From the NCBI GenBank assembly GCA_021785255.1, contig JAJYGA010000165.1:1132-37376 (forward strand): DNA of 36,245 bases. Reading direction: 5' to 3'. A program made the position numbers and the translations under genes. The notes under the pieces were generated by a model. The model was not told the origin of the DNA. It searched no databases and saw only the letters and a list, made by a program, of their open reading frames with translations. Origin of the DNA: Actinomycetes bacterium (lineage in GTDB: Bacteria; Actinomycetota; Acidimicrobiia; Acidimicrobiales; Acidimicrobiaceae). Numbering within the stretch: the stretch's first letter is position 1; each line of letters opens with the position of its first letter. Positions 971 to 18,846 of this stretch are shown here, one piece after another.

Positions 971-1175
971 GTCTTCAAGGCTAGGGTGCCTTATTGAATA
1001 ATAGGTGACCTTGGAGTAACACCTTTGGATGCTTTTTAACCTGTATTGTCACTATATGTGAAAAAACGTCTAAATGTGGTTAAGTTCTGCGGCTATCTGT
1101 ACGAAGAGTATCACTGAGAACCCAATCGTCTTTGAGGATCTCAAGGGTAAGTTCGATAGTTCAGGAGAATGCCTA

Positions 1176-1697
1176 ATGAAGTCAAAAAATTTGAAGTTCT
1201 ATTTAGAAAGGATCAACGGCGAAGAAGGGTTCACCCTTATTGAGCTCATGGTTGTAGTGCTCATTATTGGTATCTTGATGGCCATTGCCATTCCTACCTT
1301 CTTGGGTGCACAGAAGTCGGCTCAGGATCGATCAACTCAGAGCGATTTGCGTAACCTACTGACCTCCGAAGTGTCGTATTACACTCAGAATCAGTATTAC
1401 GCGGACGCCACTGACCTGGCTACACAAGATCCATCTTTTGGTTCTAAGTTGACAGGTAGCACGCCAGCTATTACTGTAGCAGCACCTACGGGCGAAACTC
1501 TTAGCTCCTCAGGTGCCACTACTGTATGTCTGTCGGAGACCTCTGTTAGCGGTACCATCTGGGGTATTGAAGAGATCGCCACGGGATCTGGTGCTGGTAC
1601 ATGGTACTACAAAGGCACTACTGCCTTCAGCTGTTCCGCGACACCAACTGCCGTTGCTGGTAGCTTGAGCCAAAACGCCTCTACCGTTGGTTGGTAA
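1176..1697 (+). CDS. Type IV prepilin-like protein 1
   Basis: Prepilin site EEG^FTLIELMVVVLIIGILMAIAIPTFLGA; in-frame ATG at 1176 preceded by AGGAGA, giving an 18-aa leader (track ORF starts at 1074). Confidence 0.9.
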   Translation: MKSKNLKFYLERINGEEGFTLIELMVVVLIIGILMAIAIPTFLGAQKSAQDRSTQSDLRNLLTSEVSYYTQNQYYADATDLATQDPSFGSKLTGSTPAITVAAPTGETLSSSGATTVCLSETSVSGTIWGIEEIATGSGAGTWYYKGTTAFSCSATPTAVAGSLSQNASTVGW

Positions 1698-1726
1698 GAC
1701 GTTAGTGGACTAAACGGACGCCTAAT

Positions 1727-1776
1727 AACCCCAACTCACTTAGCTTGAGAGCTAGATGAGTTGGGGTTTAGGTTTT
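1727..1776 (+). terminator. Rho-independent terminator after pilin 1
   Basis: AACCCCAACTCA (1727-1738) / TGAGTTGGGGTT (1757-1768), 12-bp perfect stem with nested TAGCT/AGCTA, followed by T-rich tract (taggttttt). Confidence 0.85.
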
Positions 1777-1841
1777 TGCTTCAGATTTGTTCATTGGGGT
1801 CGATGAGATCGGAGAGACTTTAATCACCATGGGGTACGGAG

Positions 1842-2399
1842 TTGAAATTATTTTGTTTTGTGGCTGACGGCGAGGAAGGGTTCACCCTTATTGAGCTCAT
1901 GGTCGTAGTGCTCATAATTGGTATCTTGATGGCCATTGCCATTCCTACCTTCTTGGGCGCAAAAAAGTCGGCTCAGGATCGATCGGCACAGAGTAATCTA
2001 AAGGCTGTTCTGACAGGTGAAATTGCGTATTATGACTCCCATGGTGTATATGCCCAGGCGGGTTCTGGTCCTGGGACTTTGGGTGAGTCCGATCCTGAGT
2101 TTGCTCAACTTCTAACCTCATCCGCTCCTAGCTCCGCATCGACGACCAATCCTATATACGTTGCCTTGGCCAGCGCTAGCGGCCGGCCGGCGCAGGCCTT
2201 TTGTGCTTTTGAGTACTCAAGCGGTGGTTCGCTCTTTGGCGTTGAAGCTGTTGCGATCGGTGCATCTATGGGAAACTACTTCTATGCGGACGAGGGGAGT
2301 TCGGCATCTGTTCCTAGTTCATGCAGCGTTCCCCCTCTCCTAGGTGGATCAGTCAGCAGCGGTATATGGTCTCAAAACGCTAAAAGTGCAGGGTTTTAA
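1842..2399 (+). CDS. Type IV prepilin-like protein 2
   Basis: GEEG^FTLIELMVVVLIIGILMAIAIPTFLGAKKSAQDRS; TTG start; short leader. Confidence 0.88.
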   Translation: MKLFCFVADGEEGFTLIELMVVVLIIGILMAIAIPTFLGAKKSAQDRSAQSNLKAVLTGEIAYYDSHGVYAQAGSGPGTLGESDPEFAQLLTSSAPSSASTTNPIYVALASASGRPAQAFCAFEYSSGGSLFGVEAVAIGASMGNYFYADEGSSASVPSSCSVPPLLGGSVSSGIWSQNAKSAGF

Positions 2400-2400
2400 G

Positions 2401-3150
2401 GTGTCAACGTCTTTGTTCATAGCTCTCGGCGCTGTAGTTGGAGCTCTATTGGGTTCCACTGCGAGTGCGCTTGCGTATCGGATACCCGTAGGCATGAACG
2501 TTACTTTTGCACGATCTGAGTGTCCGAGTTGCCACGGGAAAATTGCCGCATACGACAACATTCCTATCCTCTCCTACCTCGTGTTGAAGGGACGCTGCCG
2601 GAGCTGTCATGAACGTATCTCGGTCTCCTACATCGTGCTTGAGAGCTCAATGTCCCTACTTTATGCGACTTTGCTGCCGCTATATCGATTTGGATATGTT
2701 CAAATAGGGATATATCTTGCTGTATTTATTGCTGTAACGGGGGCGGTAGTTGACCTAAAGATTAGGAGAATACCCAATAAGTTAACGTATGTTGGACTGC
2801 TTGGGGAGCTTGTGCTTGTTTTGGGACGATCTATCCGGAGTCATTCACTCGCTCCTTTGGAACATGCCCTATTAGCGTTGATAATCTTTGGGGGGTTCTT
2901 GTTTGTTGTTGCCCTTGCCACCAAGGGTATGGGTCTAGGCGACGCGAAGTTGATGGGGGTTATCTCCCTGGCCTTGTCATCTTTTGGTCTCTACTTTATT
3001 TTCTACGTCTTTTTGGGATCTTTTGCTCTGGCCTCAGTGGTTGGTATCTCCTTGATAGTGTCTGGTCGGGCAAGTCGTAAAAGTGCTATCCCATTTGGTC
3101 CTTTCATCACGTTGAGTTTTTTGCTGGCCCTATTTATCCCGAAGCTTTAG
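2401..3150 (+). CDS. pilD: Prepilin peptidase (type IV leader peptidase / A24)
   Basis: CPSCHGKIAAYDNIPILSYLVLKGRCRSCHERIS double CxxC, catalytic Asp regions (AVVDLKIRRIPN, GMGLGDAKLMG); likely GTG start at 2401 right after pilin 2 stop. Confidence 0.88.
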   Translation: MSTSLFIALGAVVGALLGSTASALAYRIPVGMNVTFARSECPSCHGKIAAYDNIPILSYLVLKGRCRSCHERISVSYIVLESSMSLLYATLLPLYRFGYVQIGIYLAVFIAVTGAVVDLKIRRIPNKLTYVGLLGELVLVLGRSIRSHSLAPLEHALLALIIFGGFLFVVALATKGMGLGDAKLMGVISLALSSFGLYFIFYVFLGSFALASVVGISLIVSGRASRKSAIPFGPFITLSFLLALFIPKL

Positions 3151-3276
3151 TTGCGCGAAACGTTCTGTGTTCGAGGCGACAAAGTGCTCAAGGTTTTTGT
3201 GAAGATGTCGACCAAATTAGAGTGAAAGATTTTGTTGCCTCCATGGTTGCGACCCGAAGATGACGAAGGGAAGTGC

Positions 3277-5040
3277 ATGGCAGAAAAGGTTATAGGACTA
3301 GATATTGGAAGCTTTGCCATCAAGTTTGTCGAGGTTGAGTTCAAGGGGACTTCGGCTACTTTAACCAAACTCGGTCAAAGGACACTTCCCAGGGGAGCTG
3401 TAGTCGCCGGCGAGATTGTGGATACCGATGCAGTCGTCTCTACTTTGCGGGAGCTCTTGGCCTCTGCTGACGTGCACACCAAACGCTGCGTTGTTGGCGT
3501 GGGCGGAACAAGAGTAGTGGTCAGATCACTGGTCAATCCAGAGATGTCTGACTCCGAGCTTCAAGATGCAATTGCTTTTCAGGTCATAGAGTCTTTACCG
3601 ATACCGGCTTCCGAACTCGTCAGTGACTTTGAGCGCCTGGCGACGGTCGAGTCAGATGAGGCAAAGTTTATTAGGGTGCTGCTAGCTGGAGCACATGAGA
3701 GTGTTGTAAAGTCCTCTCTTGAGATCGCCAAAAGGGCTGGGCTGTCTGTAGCTGGAGTAGACGTTAATGGCCTGGCGAGTGCACGAGCTCTAAGTCGAGT
3801 ACTGCATGAGTCATCTAAAGAGACATCAGGAGAGGAAGAGACTTCTAATCTCAAGAACTTTGCCTTAGTGGAGGTAGGTTCCGACATTACTGACGTGGTA
3901 CTTAGCGCTGAAGACGGGGTTAGATTCGTACGCACTTTGCAAGTCGGTGGCGGAGAGATCACCAGAAGGATTCAAGAGATCGCCAACTGTGACGAAACGA
4001 CAGCGGAATGGTATAAACGGGGCGGCCACTTGGAAGAACAGGATGTTACTTCCGAACTTCGCGAGAGCATCTCTATGGCTATTACTGAAGCAGTCGAACA
4101 CCTTACTCAAGAGGTGGCGAACTCCTTGGAGTACTATCTTTTGCAGTCGGATGATCTAGTCATAAACAAGGTGTTCTTGGGTGGTGGTGGCGGACTCATA
4201 GTGGGTCTCTCTGAGTCTCTGTGCAACCGTTTATCCATGAACGTTGAACTAGCTCCAGCATCTTCGTATTTCGATCTGATCTGCGATGACGCTATCTCGG
4301 ATTCAGATCGTAAGTTGCTCAGTGTTTCTGGCCTTACTGCGTTGGGTCTTGCTCTTTGGAGGGCGTCCGGTTCGTCCAAAGATGTACATCGAATCAACCT
4401 CATTCCAAAGAAAACAGCGTACAAGGAGTCCATCCGAAAAGAAGTCTCTGTATTTGTTCTGGCTGCTTTGCTTGTTGGAACTGGACTTGGTGCTGTCTCA
4501 ATGCATGAAAATCAAACTCTAAGCACGAATCAGTCAGAGGTTGCTGCCTTGGCTCAACAGAGCAGTGTTCTGCAACAAAAAATTGGAGCGCTGTCTGGTG
4601 TCTCAAAGTTGGCATTGGTGGTGAGCAATTTAAAGGGACAGGTTAAGTCTGATCTTCAAGGCTCGATATCTTGGGGGAGCGTTATAGCGCAGATCGCATC
4701 TGCAACACCGTCGGACTCATGGTGGACTCAGTTGCAGACGACTCAGGCAGCGATTGGAGCCCCAGCCTCTTTGACATTTTCGCTTACCGGATGTTCTCAA
4801 CAAGCTCCAAAGAACTGGCTCACGGCTCTTTCGTCTTTGAATTTAGTCCAAAATGAATGGGTTTCATCGTCGAATTTGGCGCCGGCTTTCTCCTCGGGGC
4901 AAGCTTGTCCCGGATACTCTGGTGGTGCCGGGCTCGGTATCGAGGACGGTATCACGACGTTCTCATCGACGGCGACACTTCCAAATGGATTCAGCTCAGA
5001 TAGAGCGTTGAGCTATTTAAACCAGGTGGTGACCAAGTAG
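3277..5040 (+). CDS. Fused PilM-like ATPase plus PilN-like protein
   Basis: N-terminal MAEKVIGLDIGSFAIKFVEVEFKG actin-like PilM start; C-terminal part has PilN signature HRINLIPKK followed by a TM segment and coiled/periplasmic region in the same uninterrupted ORF; ATG at 3277 preferred over 3232. Confidence 0.85.
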   Translation: MAEKVIGLDIGSFAIKFVEVEFKGTSATLTKLGQRTLPRGAVVAGEIVDTDAVVSTLRELLASADVHTKRCVVGVGGTRVVVRSLVNPEMSDSELQDAIAFQVIESLPIPASELVSDFERLATVESDEAKFIRVLLAGAHESVVKSSLEIAKRAGLSVAGVDVNGLASARALSRVLHESSKETSGEEETSNLKNFALVEVGSDITDVVLSAEDGVRFVRTLQVGGGEITRRIQEIANCDETTAEWYKRGGHLEEQDVTSELRESISMAITEAVEHLTQEVANSLEYYLLQSDDLVINKVFLGGGGGLIVGLSESLCNRLSMNVELAPASSYFDLICDDAISDSDRKLLSVSGLTALGLALWRASGSSKDVHRINLIPKKTAYKESIRKEVSVFVLAALLVGTGLGAVSMHENQTLSTNQSEVAALAQQSSVLQQKIGALSGVSKLALVVSNLKGQVKSDLQGSISWGSVIAQIASATPSDSWWTQLQTTQAAIGAPASLTFSLTGCSQQAPKNWLTALSSLNLVQNEWVSSSNLAPAFSSGQACPGYSGGAGLGIEDGITTFSSTATLPNGFSSDRALSYLNQVVTK

Positions 5041-5660
5041 TGCACGACAAGAGAGTTCGTTTGATTTTAGGGATCGTTGCTATAGTTCTCCTTGGCGCTG
5101 GTTGGTACTTTTTTTACTTTTCTCCACTTTCTTCCAAAGTGACTCAGTCTGTGCAAGCTATCTCGGTTGACCAGGGAAATATTGCCACTTTGCAGAGTCG
5201 CTTGAACTCACTCCTGTTGGAGAAAAAGAACCTGCCAACCTTGAAAAAAGATGCCTCCCTTTTGCAAACAGCGCTTCCATCTTCACCTGATCTTCCGGCG
5301 CTGTTTAGCTCATTTACAAAAGCTGCTGCAGCATCAGGTCTGCCGCTCATCAACATCACACCGACACCCCCATCTTCGGTATCTCAGACACCAGTGGCGC
5401 CTGTTGCATCTGGTGTCAAAGGTGCCCCAAGTGTAAAGAGTTCAGCTCCATCGATCGCCTTTTCCATTCAGACAGAAGGTGGATACTTCCAGGTGGAGTC
5501 TTTTTTGAAAGCTCTAGACTCTTTAGGTCGCTTGGTGAATGTGCAGTCCGTGTCCATCACTGCAGCTGGCTCACACATTCCTGGATATCCAAGTTCTGAT
5601 GGCGAGATATTGAACGTGACGATTAAGGGTCAAGCCTTTGAAGCTCTAGGGGCTTCGTAA
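5040..5660 (+). CDS. pilO: PilO-like pilus assembly protein
   Basis: Single N-terminal TM, coiled-coil, GGYFQVESFLKALDSLGRLVNVQSVSI typical PilO region, position after PilM/N; GTG start overlapping previous TAG. Confidence 0.75.
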   Translation: MHDKRVRLILGIVAIVLLGAGWYFFYFSPLSSKVTQSVQAISVDQGNIATLQSRLNSLLLEKKNLPTLKKDASLLQTALPSSPDLPALFSSFTKAAAASGLPLINITPTPPSSVSQTPVAPVASGVKGAPSVKSSAPSIAFSIQTEGGYFQVESFLKALDSLGRLVNVQSVSITAAGSHIPGYPSSDGEILNVTIKGQAFEALGAS

Positions 5661-5679
5661 GGACCGTTTGGGAGGATCT

Positions 5680-6075
5680 ATGTCAATTACAGAACGAGAA
5701 GTAAGAGACAACGAGGATGTGGTCGAGCTTCCATCGGAGAAAGGCAAAAAAAAGAACAGGAAGTTTTCAAATGAGCCACGTGCCAGATGGCTGATCGTGG
5801 CACTTGTTATTGTGGCGATTTCTGCGGCAGCGTCACTTTTTATCTACGAAGGGGGCTTATCGTCGTCTCCGTCTGTTTCTGTGCCATCGTCGCTGCCGAC
5901 ATTTCCGAAGGTTGGGGGGCATAAACTGCTCCCTTCCGCAGGCAAAACTAAAACTGCCGCATCAACGCCCACTAGCAAGACTACTGTTACAACGCTGGTC
6001 TCTACTTCGAGCAAGAATCCTTTTACGCCGATCGTAAATACGTCATCTGCGCCAGGATCTGCACCTCAAGGTTGA
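5680..6075 (+). CDS. Small single-TM protein at the PilP position, Ser/Thr/Pro-rich
   Basis: GGGAGG upstream of ATG 5680; one TM (WLIVALVIVAISAAASLFIY), low-complexity C-terminus ending SKNPFTPIVN (resembles PilP/GspC (R/K)xPFxP motif). Confidence 0.6.
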   Translation: MSITEREVRDNEDVVELPSEKGKKKNRKFSNEPRARWLIVALVIVAISAAASLFIYEGGLSSSPSVSVPSSLPTFPKVGGHKLLPSAGKTKTAASTPTSKTTVTTLVSTSSKNPFTPIVNTSSAPGSAPQG

Positions 6076-12503: not shown

Positions 12504-13409
12504 ATGGATACGTTTATAACGGCGTCAAAGGCAGTGCCTATCTCGCGCCAGGTTCGGGGCTATGTTGCCCTTACCAAACCACGCATTATTGAGCTGCTTC
12601 TAATTACGACCGTTCCTGCGATGGTGGTTGCAAAAGGTGGCGTCCCATCTTTATGGAAGATGGCGATAACGGTGATTGGCGGGACTCTAGCAGCTGGTGG
12701 TGCAAACGCAGTTAACATGTGGTTTGATCGAGACATCGATGCGGTTATGAAAAGGACGCAGCATAGGCCCTTGGTCACAGGAGAAGTGACGCCCACCGGT
12801 GCTTTAGTCTTTGCGGTGGCGCTAGAGGTGATAGCGTTCTCGCTGCTTTATACAGGAGACAATCTGCTCTCCGCGATCCTGGCTCTCTCTGCTGCCTTTT
12901 TCTATATTTTTATCTATACTTTGTGGCTGAAGCGGTCGACATCTCAAAATATTGTGATCGGTGGAGCCGCTGGCGCAGTGCCTGTACTTGTCGGCTGGGC
13001 TGCCATACAAAACAACATTACCCTTGCCTCTTTGTTGATGTTCCTCATCATCTTTTTATGGACACCACCACATTTTTGGGCCTTGGCATTTAGATATAAA
13101 GAAGACTACTCCAAGGCGAATGTGCCGATGATGCCTTCGGTTAGGTCTATGCGTTCGACCACTATCCAAATTATGGTATATACAGTGGTCTTAACGGCTG
13201 TGACCTTGCTCCTTGGCCCGGTGGCACACTTGGGGCTTTTGTATGATGCTGCTGCATTGGCTCTTGGGGCAGGATTTTTTGGCTACTCCTATCGACTCTA
13301 CAGATCTGAGAGTCCTAAGGTGGCCATGAGAGTATTTTCGTATTCGATCACATATTTAATGTTACTTTTCATCTTTATGGGGGTGGATGTACTTGTCTAC
13401 CACGTATGA
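12504..13409 (+). CDS. ctaB: Protoheme IX farnesyltransferase (heme o synthase)
   Basis: YVALTKPRIIELLLITTVPAM, NMWFDRDIDAVMKRTQHRPL, WTPPHFWALA. Confidence 0.96.
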   Translation: MDTFITASKAVPISRQVRGYVALTKPRIIELLLITTVPAMVVAKGGVPSLWKMAITVIGGTLAAGGANAVNMWFDRDIDAVMKRTQHRPLVTGEVTPTGALVFAVALEVIAFSLLYTGDNLLSAILALSAAFFYIFIYTLWLKRSTSQNIVIGGAAGAVPVLVGWAAIQNNITLASLLMFLIIFLWTPPHFWALAFRYKEDYSKANVPMMPSVRSMRSTTIQIMVYTVVLTAVTLLLGPVAHLGLLYDAAALALGAGFFGYSYRLYRSESPKVAMRVFSYSITYLMLLFIFMGVDVLVYHV

Positions 13410-14043
13410 AGAACGAACTACGGTGAACCCCGAGCCTTCCATTTTGCCCACTACGGCACTCCTGAACTCTCCTAAGAAGATCATTGGAATGGTTCTGCTG
13501 GTGACAGCAGCGTTTGGTGTCGTGTTTGCGGTGTACCTTTCAACGGTTGTAGTTAAGTCCAAAGGTGCCACTAAGAATCTGATAGCCAGTGCGTCTGGAA
13601 CAACACTTACGGGTCCGTTGCAAGGAAAACAACTTCCAAGCTTCTCACTTCCTGGTCTACAAGGCCCTAGCAGCATCAGTTCGACTCTAATCTCAGGCAA
13701 GCCGACCGTAATAAACTTTTTTGCCTCATGGTGTACTTCATGTCAGGCAGAGATGGCCACTTTGGCATCCGCATCTAGGAGTTTCTCTCATAACGTTGCC
13801 TTTTTGGGCATAGATGAAAATGACACAGCCAGCTCTGCGACTAAGTTTCTTTCCAAGTACGGCGTTACATATCCGGTTGCGTTTGACCCTAAGGTTTCGC
13901 TGCAGGGACCGTTCAAGCTTGTTGGATTGCCAACCACGTTATTTGTTGAACCCAATGGAAAAATATATCGAGAGATCTTGGGCACGATGAGTAAGGGTGT
14001 TTTGACGCAAAACCTGAAAGCATTAGAAAAGGCTTCCAAGTAA
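13387..14043 (+). CDS. TlpA/ResA-like membrane-anchored thioredoxin-fold protein
   Basis: N-terminal TM, VINFFASWCTSCQAEMATLA (CxxC), VGLPTTLFVEPNGKI; exact start uncertain. Confidence 0.85.
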   Translation: MYLSTTYEERTTVNPEPSILPTTALLNSPKKIIGMVLLVTAAFGVVFAVYLSTVVVKSKGATKNLIASASGTTLTGPLQGKQLPSFSLPGLQGPSSISSTLISGKPTVINFFASWCTSCQAEMATLASASRSFSHNVAFLGIDENDTASSATKFLSKYGVTYPVAFDPKVSLQGPFKLVGLPTTLFVEPNGKIYREILGTMSKGVLTQNLKALEKASK

Positions 14044-14390: not shown

Positions 14391-15071
14391 TTGTCGAAAG
14401 GAGCACGAGCGGGTCTCGTCATAGTAGCCTTTGCGGCCGCCATCGGAATTATCCTGTTTGGTGTCTTTGGCTATCTACGGACAAGTCCGCCAGTGGTGTC
14501 AGCGGTCCCAGCTGCAACGCAGCCGAACACGGTTAATGTGACGATGCAGGTGGATGGTGCCGTTGGGGTAGGACCTCACCCTACGTGGGTGGGTTATTGG
14601 ATACAAGGAGCTAATGGACAGTACAAGCAAACGACGCTGTTTAAGGTTCCTGTGAATACATATGTGCATGTGAAGCTGTATGAGTACGACAGCGGTGGGC
14701 CAATTCGAAACCCTTATTGGGGTAAAGAGATAGGTACCGCTGGAAACGTCATTATCGTGAATGGACAGCCAGTTAGCCTGGTCAATTCATACGCGGGAAA
14801 TGGCGTGGCTCACAACTTTGATGTACCTGGTCTTGGCGTAAACGTTGCACTTCCTGGTGTAAATGGTAATGCTAAGAACTTCTGTAACGTAGGACCATGT
14901 AATCCAAGCGAAGCTCATAATCTCATTCAGTTCACCTTCTACTCAGGGAAAATCGTACACAACTACCGTTGGCAGTGCTTTGTTCCCTGTGGTCTTGGGT
15001 ATCTGACTGGTAACGGTGGACCTATGACGAGTATCGGTTATATGGCTGGATTTGTTCAGGTGGTGAAGTAG
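14391..15071 (+). CDS. Membrane-anchored cupredoxin-like protein (COX II-like, degenerate CuA motif)
   Basis: N-terminal TM; GVAHNFDVPGLGVNVALPG resembles COX II DVIHDFWAYQLGVK; YRWQCFVPCGLGYLTGNGGPM resembles COX II VVRCDELCGIWHGAM. Confidence 0.7.
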   Translation: MSKGARAGLVIVAFAAAIGIILFGVFGYLRTSPPVVSAVPAATQPNTVNVTMQVDGAVGVGPHPTWVGYWIQGANGQYKQTTLFKVPVNTYVHVKLYEYDSGGPIRNPYWGKEIGTAGNVIIVNGQPVSLVNSYAGNGVAHNFDVPGLGVNVALPGVNGNAKNFCNVGPCNPSEAHNLIQFTFYSGKIVHNYRWQCFVPCGLGYLTGNGGPMTSIGYMAGFVQVVK

Positions 15072-15955
15072 TGGCGCTTAAGACACAAGAAAGTGGTTCT
15101 CCAGCAGCGATAGCTAGAAAACACGGTATCCGAATTGTGGGTATCTGGTTTGTTCTATCGCTTATCACGGATCTAGTGGTTTGGTTTGTGTGGGGACCTC
15201 ATATGCCTCCTGGTACCATGACGACGAGTGCAGCGGGACAACAGTTTGACTTCAAAGTTCTTACTGTTATGTCAGTTCCGGTTTTGTTTATGGTTTGGGT
15301 GTATGGCGTATATGTAATTGTGAAGTTCCGTGATCGTGGAGACCATGAAGATGGATACTACGTGAAGGGTAATCGTAAAAGTCAAGCACTTTGGTATGCA
15401 GCTACGGCAGTCTTGGTTCTGTCGCTGGCGGGGTTTGGAACCTATGAGTTGGTTGTCCCAGCCGGTGCCGGTGTGGGTGAGGGACCCTCGCCCATTTGGA
15501 AGCCAGCGAATGCGAAACATATACTTCAAGTCCAAGTGATTGCGCAACAGTGGCGTTTCACATATCGTTGGCCACAGTTTGGTGGAATGGAGACTACGTC
15601 GTTGGTTCTTCCGGTAAATACGGAGATTCAATTCAACGTGACCTCCTTAGACGTTATCCATGACTTTTGGGCGTATCAGCTTGGAGTAAAAGCCGATGCT
15701 AACCCTGAGGTGAACAACGTCGCTTACACCAAGACGCAACAGACCGGTAGGTTTGTCGTGCGCTGTGACGAGCTGTGTGGAATATGGCATGGAGCCATGT
15801 ACAACTATGGAAACGTAGTGTCTCAAAATGCGTTTTATCAATGGGCTACCAGCATGCAAGCTAAGAACGCCTCTTTGACGAAGCTGTTGCCCAAGTATTC
15901 GACGGTATATGTTCCAAACGATAACGTCGTCGGCGGGCAGTACTTCAATGGCTAG
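15071..15955 (+). CDS. ctaC: Cytochrome c oxidase subunit II
   Basis: Two TM helices, QWRFTYRWPQ, IHDFW, RCDELCGIWHGAMY complete CuA site. Confidence 0.95.
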   Translation: MALKTQESGSPAAIARKHGIRIVGIWFVLSLITDLVVWFVWGPHMPPGTMTTSAAGQQFDFKVLTVMSVPVLFMVWVYGVYVIVKFRDRGDHEDGYYVKGNRKSQALWYAATAVLVLSLAGFGTYELVVPAGAGVGEGPSPIWKPANAKHILQVQVIAQQWRFTYRWPQFGGMETTSLVLPVNTEIQFNVTSLDVIHDFWAYQLGVKADANPEVNNVAYTKTQQTGRFVVRCDELCGIWHGAMYNYGNVVSQNAFYQWATSMQAKNASLTKLLPKYSTVYVPNDNVVGGQYFNG

Positions 15956-16041
15956 GCGTGTTGCTTGTTTCGTAATAGAGATGGTGGATCAGTCCTCTTT
16001 CTCAAATTTGAATCTATCTCGTGAATGGGAGGAAAAAATTA

Positions 16042-17973
16042 ATGGCGATTGATATGTCGCAGTCAACTGGCGTTGGCCAGTCTGGCGGAGCCGGCGGATC
16101 AACCGCAGTCAAGTGGTTTGCCCGTGGGAACATAGTCTCAGCGACTGTTCTTGGGGCTGGTGGTTGGTTCTTCGGTCACTGGTGGGGGAATGTCATTGCT
16201 GGACAGTACACCTCAGTGCAAAACAGCGGAACGAACGATGTCTCTTGGCTGCTTGGTGCAATATTCGCGACGGTGGCATGGTTTATTGGCCTTGGTGCTT
16301 TAAACCATCCGATCGCGAAGCTGTGGGGCGGCGAGGCTCCATTGCCCGAAAAGAAGGAGAAGTATTCGATTTGGGAGTACTTCTCTTACTCAACTGACCA
16401 CAAGGTAGTGGGTATCCAATACCTCTTTGCAATGTTGATGTACTTCTTTGTTGCTGGTCTCTTGGCGCTTGGGATCCGTACTGAACTGTTGTCACCGACC
16501 TATCACATCTGGGGTCCTGACACCTATATTGAAATTGTAGGTGAACATGGCACCATGATGATGATGATGATGACATCGGTCATAATGGGTCCATTTGGAA
16601 ACTTTCTTGTTCCTTTGATGATCGGATCTAAGAAGATGGCGTTTCCTCGACTAGAGGCGGTGTCTTTTTGGTTCACTGTTCCGGCGTTCTTCTTTTTGCT
16701 TTCCGCTCTGTGGCAGGGTGGATTTCAATCTGGATGGACGGGCTATGCACCTCTATCGATACAAGGGGGAGTAGGGCAAGACGCCTATCTCTTTAGCTTT
16801 GCGCTGATGGCGATGTCTATGTTGGCGGCTTCAACGAACATGGTGGCAACCATCATTAACTATCGAGCACCTGGTATGAGATGGAGTCGACTCTCCGTAT
16901 TGGCCTGGGGTATGATTACCACAGCGTTCACGATGATCTTGTCTGTTCCTGTTCTTATTGACGGACTATATGTCATGGGTATGGATCGTGCAGTGCAGAC
17001 ATCGATGCTGTATGGCCAGCACGGTGGTTCTCCATTTCTTTGGGAAAACCTCTTTTGGTTCTTCGGTCATCCTGAGGTGTATCTGTTGGCCCTTCCTGGC
17101 TTTGCGATGACGACTGAGATTCTTCCAGTCTTTGCTCGCAAGCCTATATTTGCCTTCAAAACTTCGGTTGCAGGAATGATTGGTGTGGCGACACTGAGCT
17201 TCTTCGTTTGGCAACACCACCTGTTCAACTCGGGTATGAACCCAGATATGAGACCGCTGTTCATGTTGTCAACGGAGTTGATCTCTATTCCAACCGGTTT
17301 CTTGTACTTAGTGGGTATGGGTACGGTTTGGAGAGGAAGACTTAGATTCAATGTGCCTATGTTGTTCATGCTGTCCGTGTTCTTCAACTTCTTATGGGGA
17401 GGAATTACCGGAGTTTATAACTCTGATGTTCCTGTAGATGCTTTGATTCACGGAAGCTTCTTTGTTATGGCTCACTTCCACTTTACGATTATGGGTCAGT
17501 TGATGTTTGCCGTGTTTGGCGCCATCTACTACTACACTCCTTTGTTCTTTGGAATTAAGCTGTCTGAGAAACTGGGTAAAATTCACTTCTGGACGATGTT
17601 CATCTTCTTCAACTCGACCTTCCTGCCACTGTTTATAGTGGGATGGTTAGGTCAACCCAGAAGAGTGTTTGAGTACGCTGCCAGATTGCAAACTTTAAAC
17701 CAGTGGGTTTCGATATCTGCATATGGTTTAGGTCTATCACTTGCTTTCTTTGTGGTTACATTCGTCTGGCAGTTGGTGGTATCGAGGCCGAAGTCCGAGC
17801 AAAATCCTTGGGACTCACGTGGTCTTGAGTGGCTTGTCGGCATTCCGGTTCCCAAGGACAACTTCGAGCAGATCCCAGTTGTTCTTTCATCACCATATGA
17901 GTATGGCAACCCTAATGCTGGCCCGATGGCGGATCTTGCGCCATCCATTAGTTCAGTTGGGAGTGATGCATAG
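16042..17973 (+). CDS. ctaD: Cytochrome c oxidase subunit I (heme-copper oxidase)
   Basis: GEHGTMM, WFFGHPEVYLLALPGF, WQHHLFNSGM, MAHFHFTIMG; GGGAGG upstream of ATG 16042. Confidence 0.97.
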   Translation: MAIDMSQSTGVGQSGGAGGSTAVKWFARGNIVSATVLGAGGWFFGHWWGNVIAGQYTSVQNSGTNDVSWLLGAIFATVAWFIGLGALNHPIAKLWGGEAPLPEKKEKYSIWEYFSYSTDHKVVGIQYLFAMLMYFFVAGLLALGIRTELLSPTYHIWGPDTYIEIVGEHGTMMMMMMTSVIMGPFGNFLVPLMIGSKKMAFPRLEAVSFWFTVPAFFFLLSALWQGGFQSGWTGYAPLSIQGGVGQDAYLFSFALMAMSMLAASTNMVATIINYRAPGMRWSRLSVLAWGMITTAFTMILSVPVLIDGLYVMGMDRAVQTSMLYGQHGGSPFLWENLFWFFGHPEVYLLALPGFAMTTEILPVFARKPIFAFKTSVAGMIGVATLSFFVWQHHLFNSGMNPDMRPLFMLSTELISIPTGFLYLVGMGTVWRGRLRFNVPMLFMLSVFFNFLWGGITGVYNSDVPVDALIHGSFFVMAHFHFTIMGQLMFAVFGAIYYYTPLFFGIKLSEKLGKIHFWTMFIFFNSTFLPLFIVGWLGQPRRVFEYAARLQTLNQWVSISAYGLGLSLAFFVVTFVWQLVVSRPKSEQNPWDSRGLEWLVGIPVPKDNFEQIPVVLSSPYEYGNPNAGPMADLAPSISSVGSDA

Positions 17974-18623
17974 TGGCGTCCAATGTTGATGAGAGACCAG
18001 TTATTGATGAGGAGGCGTACTACCATGATGCATCGTTGGGTGCAACTTGGACTGCGTCGAGAACGGCTGTTGCTATGGTGGCGACACTATACGGTGGTCT
18101 GGCGTTCGCCTTCTTTTACCTGCGTTCATTGAACTCGAACGGTCAGTGGAATCCCAATCACATCACCGCTTCGACGATTATCGGAACCACAATTACGCTT
18201 CTCATAGTGGTTGCGTCGTTGGTGAACTATTTTGGGGTCCGAAGACTGCGAAGAGGTCTAGTCCTGGACTGGCAAGTTGCTGGGACGTTTGCAGCGGCAT
18301 TTGTCCTAATCGCCGGAGGGATGCAGATTTGGGAGTTGACGAGACTCCCATTCCAGCCTTCCTCGTTTGGGTACGCCAGCGTATTTATCGCCTTCGCGCC
18401 AGTTAACGCTTTTGCGATTCTGCTGACGGGATATTGGTTAGAGACCGCAGTGATGAAGTCTGTTCGAATCAAGAGACAGGCGATTGCTGACGGAGGTCTT
18501 GGACTTTCAAGTCTTCCGATAGCAGAGCAGTTCCGAGCCAATTTGGATGGAATGTCATTCTTTCTCAATGGCTTTGCTTTCATTACCGTTGTCTTTTACA
18601 TTATCTTTTATGTGATTGCATAG
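17973..18623 (+). CDS. ctaE: Cytochrome c oxidase subunit III-like protein
   Basis: About five hydrophobic segments, follows coxI with TAGTG overlap; AFFYLRSLNSNGQWNP and GFAFITVVFYIIFYVIA; position plus topology. Confidence 0.8.
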   Translation: MASNVDERPVIDEEAYYHDASLGATWTASRTAVAMVATLYGGLAFAFFYLRSLNSNGQWNPNHITASTIIGTTITLLIVVASLVNYFGVRRLRRGLVLDWQVAGTFAAAFVLIAGGMQIWELTRLPFQPSSFGYASVFIAFAPVNAFAILLTGYWLETAVMKSVRIKRQAIADGGLGLSSLPIAEQFRANLDGMSFFLNGFAFITVVFYIIFYVIA

Positions 18624-18717: not shown

Positions 18718-18846
18718 GTGTTTGGCATTATTGGAGAGAACACTCAAGCTGGTGCTGATTTGACTTATATTATTCCGATCGGTATTTTTGTCGCGGCACT
18801 AATCTATGGTTTTTTTGTCAGGAAACGTCCTACCAACAAGGTTTGA
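18718..18846 (+). CDS. 42-aa single-TM protein in the cox cluster
   Basis: Manual translation: (V/M)FGIIGENTQAGADLTYIIPIGIFVAALIYGFFVRKRPTNKV*, preceded by TAGGAGGTG ribosome binding site and followed by a hairpin terminator; below ORF-track length limit. Confidence 0.75.
   Translation: MFGIIGENTQAGADLTYIIPIGIFVAALIYGFFVRKRPTNKV

Follow-up and report, generated by a model that had tools for sequence, protein, structure and literature searches.

Exchanged D- and K-channel residues in a clade of CuA-bearing heme-copper oxidases

The stretch of DNA analysed here (the window, 36,245 nucleotides) comes from an acidophilic, iron-oxidising actinobacterium and encodes an A1-type terminal oxidase in which the residues equivalent to D132, N139 and K362 of subunit I and E101 of subunit II are Lys, Glu, Leu and Gln, respectively. 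Because the carboxylate lost at position 132 reappears at position 139 in 99/99 oxidases of the clade to which this enzyme belongs, we suggest that the D path has been remodelled rather than abandoned. The enzyme is most likely an aa3 oxidase of CuA type that serves respiration at low energy yield, possibly on ferrous iron. Positions such as 132, 139, 286, 353 and 362 are given in Rhodobacter sphaeroides numbering, and the oxidase gene cluster described below lies on the plus strand.

The oxidase subunits and their channel residues

An earlier note on this DNA had named the four exchanges and held that subunit I keeps all of its metal ligands, and direct reading of the sequence confirmed both. 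In subunit I, the codon AAG at 16633-16635 encodes K205 at the position of the D-channel entry Asp, GAG at 16654-16656 encodes E212 at the asparagine gate of the D channel (N139), and TTG at 17302-17304 encodes L428 at the position of the K-channel Lys (K362), while in subunit II CAA at 15383-15385 encodes Q105 in place of the K-channel entry Glu (E101). Every metal-ligand motif was found in the open frames of the two subunits. The note's statement that no gaps are needed around these sites agrees with a HMMER alignment to solved A-type oxidases, including the mycobacterial enzyme, in which K205, E212 and L428 face Asp, Asn and Lys without gaps; alignment to Escherichia coli CyoB pairs the same residues with D135, N142 and K362. 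A shifted alignment was rejected on the basis of these gap-free matches. The exchanges recur in all close relatives, and comparison with the two closest orthologues gives dN/dS values of 0.02-0.03, so that a sequencing error or annotation accident was rejected and, on the dN/dS values, a pseudogene as well. The oxidase genes are under purifying selection.

Subunit I (16021..17973; Pfam COX1, 8.5e-118) is of A1 type with an HPEVY motif, and it scores 510 bits against TIGR02891 (A-family) versus 64 bits against SoxB, a difference on which membership in the B family was rejected. Its true start is probably the ATG at 16042, because conservation begins there; residue numbers in this text follow the GTG-based start. 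An AF2 model, aligned to the R. sphaeroides and mycobacterial COX1 structures, has 14 predicted transmembrane helices, two of which are extra at the N terminus (residues 38-60 and 73-91). The six His ligands and the helix VI cross-link Tyr are present, as is the invariant E286 equivalent (E352, 17074..17076). The residue before the former entry Asp, P131 in R. sphaeroides, is basic too, giving K204-K205 at 16630..16635. E419 and S422 (17275..17286) correspond to positions 353 and 356 on helix VIII, and D469 (17425..17427) to position 403 in the P-side loop just before helix X. Clade-specific polar residues of subunit I include E175 (16543-16545) beside the heme a ligand, Q398 (17212-17214) beside the CuB His pair, and D469 in its P-side loop. 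At the C terminus, a PYxY motif (17896-17904; Y626 and Y628) was common to all K362-less oxidases of our first alignment and absent from its canonical oxidases.

Subunit II (15071..15955; Pfam COX2, 5.3e-15) has a complete CuA motif (VIH...CDELCGIWHGAM), matches CuA subunits in the PDB and conserves the CuA ligands. Because it holds these ligands, the enzyme classes by sequence as a cytochrome c oxidase and not a quinol oxidase. Among 88 orthologues, the residue at the Q105 position is Gln in 78, Ser in five, Glu in four and Ala in one, and Glu is the residue found there in the canonical subunit II copies encoded elsewhere in this genome.

Conservation and order of the exchanges

Across the 99 clade oxidases, the A1-type residues at the D-channel mouth are absent: position 132 is Arg in 81, Lys in 17 and Gly in one, with Asp in none, and position 139 is always Glu. 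K362 is likewise absent, replaced by Ile, Leu, Val or Thr. E286 and Y288 are present in 99/99, as the earlier note had observed for the window's HPEVY, and the metal ligands are kept. Also found in all 99 are T352 and T359, together with Glu at 353, Ser at 356, Asp at 403 and Gln at 332. Along the D path, N207 and T211 are kept and N121 and S142 mostly so, and the polar residues at 197 and 201 have mostly become Ile, Met or Val. These alignments and the clade survey support the note's view that loss of the canonical D- and K-entry residues fits an acidophile. Its account of the D-channel mouth was right about the missing entry Asp but overlooked that the carboxylate had moved from 132 to 139; its K362 loss also stands, although that loss proved older and wider than the window's clade and paired with Glu353 and Ser356, which the note had not noticed.

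The wider family shows how these residues covary. Three sequences beyond the 99 (L020-L022) have Arg at 132 and Gln at 139; nine relatives without K362 keep D132, N139 and E286; and eight A2-like relatives, which also lack K362, keep D132 and N139 and have Ala at 286. In the sampled set, position 139 is never Asn when 132 is basic and always Asn when 132 is Asp. Glu353 and Ser356 occur together in 119/119 K362-less sequences of the sampled oxidase family, and Glu353 in 0/20 K362-bearing ones, which have Met, Leu, Tyr, Ala, Ile or Val there. The top plasmid matches were ordinary oxidases plus one Sinorhizobium enzyme (L139, CtaD of S. medicae plasmid pSMED03) with Asn at 132, Gln at 362 and no Glu353. 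This enzyme, a further oxidase devoid of the classical channel residues, shows by its Lys-to-Gln exchange without Glu353 that K362 loss and Glu353 do not always go together.

The order of the changes was read from a maximum-likelihood tree of 78 rows, built without the tested columns and rooted on CyoB. On this tree K362 is lost twice and Glu353 gained twice, D132 changes once, inside a K-less, D-retaining ancestry, and position 139 departs from Asn a single time, a change from Glu to Gln following later. A single origin of K362 loss was rejected, as forcing one K-less clade gave an AU p of 0.001. In distant actinobacterial oxidases (L126/L129), K362 disappeared and Glu353 and Ser356 arose independently, with D132 kept. 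Judged from the alignments and the tree, loss of K362 with gain of Glu353/Ser356 happened at least twice. Because D loss nests within K-less, D-retaining enzymes, the history reads, given the CyoB rooting, as K362 lost first and the D-channel mouth changed second. A sign test on independent pairs, of which there were very few, was not significant.

Gene neighbourhood, partner proteins and distribution

The gene order in the window is ctaB, a thioredoxin-like gene, a cupredoxin gene, subunit II, subunit I, a COX3-like gene and a gene for a membrane protein of 42 residues. Where a locus is long enough to judge, the cupredoxin-II-I-III set is almost always conserved. The earlier note had overlooked the cupredoxin, the full CuA centre, the COX3-like subunit and the 42-residue protein. 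The cluster opens with heme o synthase (CtaB/CyoE; 12504..13409; NCBIfam NF003349, 389.6 bits against a cut-off of 246), followed by a thioredoxin-fold protein of the ResA/TlpA-like kind (13387..14043; Pfam AhpC-TSA, 1.6e-19), whose NCBIfam ResA-like score is below cut-off and whose possible role is that of an oxidase assembly factor. Downstream of subunit I, a five-helix protein (17973..18623) is a COX3-like subunit III: its profile has COX3 as best PDB match (E=0.0046), one family member matches Pfam COX3 at 0.003, and its gene position is conserved. Behind an AGGAGG site lies an unannotated single-helix protein of 42 residues (18718..18846), a probable small oxidase subunit, homologues of which sit downstream of subunit III in many loci. 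Farther upstream, the region 1074-6075 holds genes of a type IV pilus, namely for a prepilin-like protein, a peptidase A24, PilM and PilO.

The membrane-anchored cupredoxin-like subunit (14391..15071) resembles AcoP and rusticyanin. Its AF2 model (pLDDT 84) has one transmembrane helix and a beta fold whose best fold matches are rusticyanin and CuA domains. A phmmer search with the single sequence returned nothing relevant; only the profile pointed to AcoP, as a weak best PDB match (E=0.012 over 33 residues). An N-terminal transmembrane helix, a cupredoxin fold and a gene adjoining the oxidase are shared with AcoP. The invariant residues in the orthologue alignment are H141, C165, C170, C196, C200, M212 and M218, which do not provide the His-Cys-His-Met copper ligand set of AcoP: there is no second invariant His, and C196-x3-C200 is present instead. 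Because of these two differences, the copper site may differ from that of AcoP or be missing. With its four invariant Cys, His141 and two Met, the protein may carry a copper site of a new type or else be a structural domain.

The source genome (2.57 Mb) contains CtaA and two further COX1 genes, both canonical aa3. These two genes (L001/L002) are nearly identical, and each has its own subunit II. Genomes of the source organism's family mostly have one canonical and one variant-type COX1, as judged by score and length. Orthologues of the variant occur in Ferrithrix, Acidithrix, Ferrimicrobium, Acidiferrimicrobium, Trebonia and many metagenome-assembled genomes (MAGs), including ones from acid sites, bog and palsa. 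Of the named relatives, Ferrithrix thermotolerans comes closest, at 94% in subunit I, and one MAG exceeds it (95%). Ferrithrix and its kin belong to the iron-oxidising acidophiles (PMC5143472, PMC8790237), and in two iron-oxidising relatives Fe2+ reduces a-type hemes in whole cells (PMC5143472).

Proton uptake, pumping and comparison with known oxidases

We propose that this A1-type aa3 oxidase, with its full CuA centre and AcoP-like cupredoxin, would serve as a second terminal oxidase for strong acid, the two canonical aa3 oxidases being kept alongside it in the genome. A periplasmic donor of high potential would hand electrons, which in iron oxidisers probably stem in the end from Fe2+, to the cupredoxin, and from there they would reach CuA, heme a and the heme a3-CuB centre. 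The protons consumed in forming water would be drawn from the cytoplasm by way of a remodelled D path, in which a basic residue replaces the entry Asp and a carboxylate, the Glu at 139, lies one step inward, below E286. With E286, N207 and T211 retained, and usually N121 and S142, the D path above its mouth is probably still used, fed via E212. With the Lys-based K path gone, the load would fall on the D path alone or together with Glu353/Ser356 of helix VIII. Energy would be conserved mainly by taking up chemical protons from the inside against electrons from the outside. The earlier note's suggestion that protons arrive by another route is therefore one option only, and the apparent remodelling of the D path is a second.

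The potential of the Fe3+/Fe2+ couple is +0.77 V and that of O2/H2O is about +1.11 V at pH 2, which yields about 0.34 eV per electron at pH 2 with Fe2+ as donor. At a protonmotive force of 0.2-0.25 V, this amount would make chemical protons from the inside affordable, but not full pumping on top of them. Because it cannot pay for both, we favour a decoupled or weakly pumping oxidase, a reading to which we would nevertheless assign slightly less than an even chance. Altered pumping, which the earlier note had also raised, is plausible, since mutants with Asp, Ser or Thr in place of N139 remain active but no longer pump (PMC12901375). The region from D132 to the asparagine gate is thought to be a bottleneck for pumping (PMC4321873). 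Several points count against the proposed account: L020-L022, with Arg at 132 and Gln at 139, have no carboxylate at the gate, and Glu for Asn together with a basic 132 differs from the studied mutants. In addition, Acidianus oxidases without classical channels, their D and K paths modified, reportedly still pump. The role in iron respiration is weakened by the inclusion in the clade of Trebonia and of peat and soil MAGs, which to our knowledge are not known as iron oxidisers.

It is unlikely, though deserving of serious weight, that the remodelled D path pumps normally at 1 H+/e-, with Glu139 and the basic 132 acting as a displaced proton antenna. The carboxylate is relocated and not lost, E286, N207, T211 and mostly N121 are kept, and in R. 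sphaeroides moving the carboxylate from 132 to 139 (D132N/N139D) reportedly restored pumping, which also counts against decoupling. Normal pumping is harder to reconcile with the small free energy available if the donor is Fe2+, with the decoupling caused by the gate exchanges to Asp, Thr or Ser (PMC12901375), and with the mostly Ile, Met or Val residues at 197 and 201. We consider it improbable that a basic-acid pair shuts the D mouth and that protons enter via Glu353/Ser356 of helix VIII as a K-channel substitute. The strict co-occurrence of these residues with K362 loss, twice independently, and the break that the AF2 model places in helix VIII at residue 421, beside E419, would suit such a route, but the canonical Asp and Asn of the D channel are retained in the other Glu353-bearing relatives that lack K362, so that on its own Glu353 need not replace the D channel, and helix periodicity sets Glu353 opposite the K362 face. 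Very improbable is an electroneutral enzyme, serving mere electron disposal, that takes its water-forming protons from the acidic periplasm: there are new acids at 403 in the P-side loop and at 105 next to the heme a ligand, and a proton leak through the exit path is believed to supply D132N mutants (PMC4321873), but no energy would be conserved and there would be no need for E286 to be invariant. There is the slightest of chances that pumped protons take the H pathway, making the D and K changes irrelevant for pumping, as this pathway is proposed to be conserved in all families (PMC12901375) but is contested for bacteria.

Returning to the decoupled or weakly pumping oxidase, its most novel form seems doubtful to us: an A-family subfamily with both channels re-engineered, stably decoupled and fitted to low-yield iron respiration in acid, the D132 carboxylate having moved to N139 behind a basic residue and Lys362 having given way to Glu353 on the same helix. 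In open-licence literature without supplements, we found no report of coupled D132R/K and N139E in an E286-keeping A1 enzyme, nor of the K362-Glu353 pairing. Views on which residues proton uptake and pumping need rest mostly on point mutants of a small number of enzymes. In the variant oxidase, evolution has produced one combination of exchanges and retained it in roughly a hundred species. Intermediates for the successive steps are still alive, first with K362 gone and the D channel intact, then with D132 gone and N139 exchanged, which makes the variant oxidase a natural test of proton uptake and pumping. Given the order of changes, the K362-Glu353 pairing and, as controls, the canonical paralogues that this genome also encodes, direct tests can be made of decoupling, of channel relocation and of the tie to low-energy respiration.

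With A1-type aa3 oxidases from mycobacteria and R. sphaeroides, the window enzyme shares its fold, the CuA subunit, the six His ligands and both the Glu and the Tyr of HPEVY; it differs from them in having D132, N139, K362 and subunit II E101 all exchanged, two added N-terminal helices and new Glu353, Ser356, D403 and Gln332. Two extra N-terminal helices are also described for the 2TM COX1 clade in the main-text passages of Degli Esposti et al. 2021 (PMC8239418); these passages infer several K-channel losses in family A under one scenario and contain no description of D132R/K with N139E or Glu353. In Acidithiobacillus ferrooxidans, likewise an acidophilic iron oxidiser with a CuA oxidase and a cupredoxin in the same cluster (aa3/AcoP/rusticyanin), AcoP is the cupredoxin partner of the aa3 oxidase, contacts it and cytochrome c, and keeps the oxidase optimally active (PMC4059628); the window cupredoxin differs from AcoP in lacking the second His and having C-x3-C. 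The B-family ba3 oxidase differs in carrying Ile in place of E286; it shares an Arg at the D132 position (R100), but its D path is inactive (PMC12901375). The decoupled mutants N139D and N131D (N98D in bovine numbering) share with the window enzyme a carboxylate at the asparagine gate, but they keep D132 and K362, whereas the window enzyme has neither.
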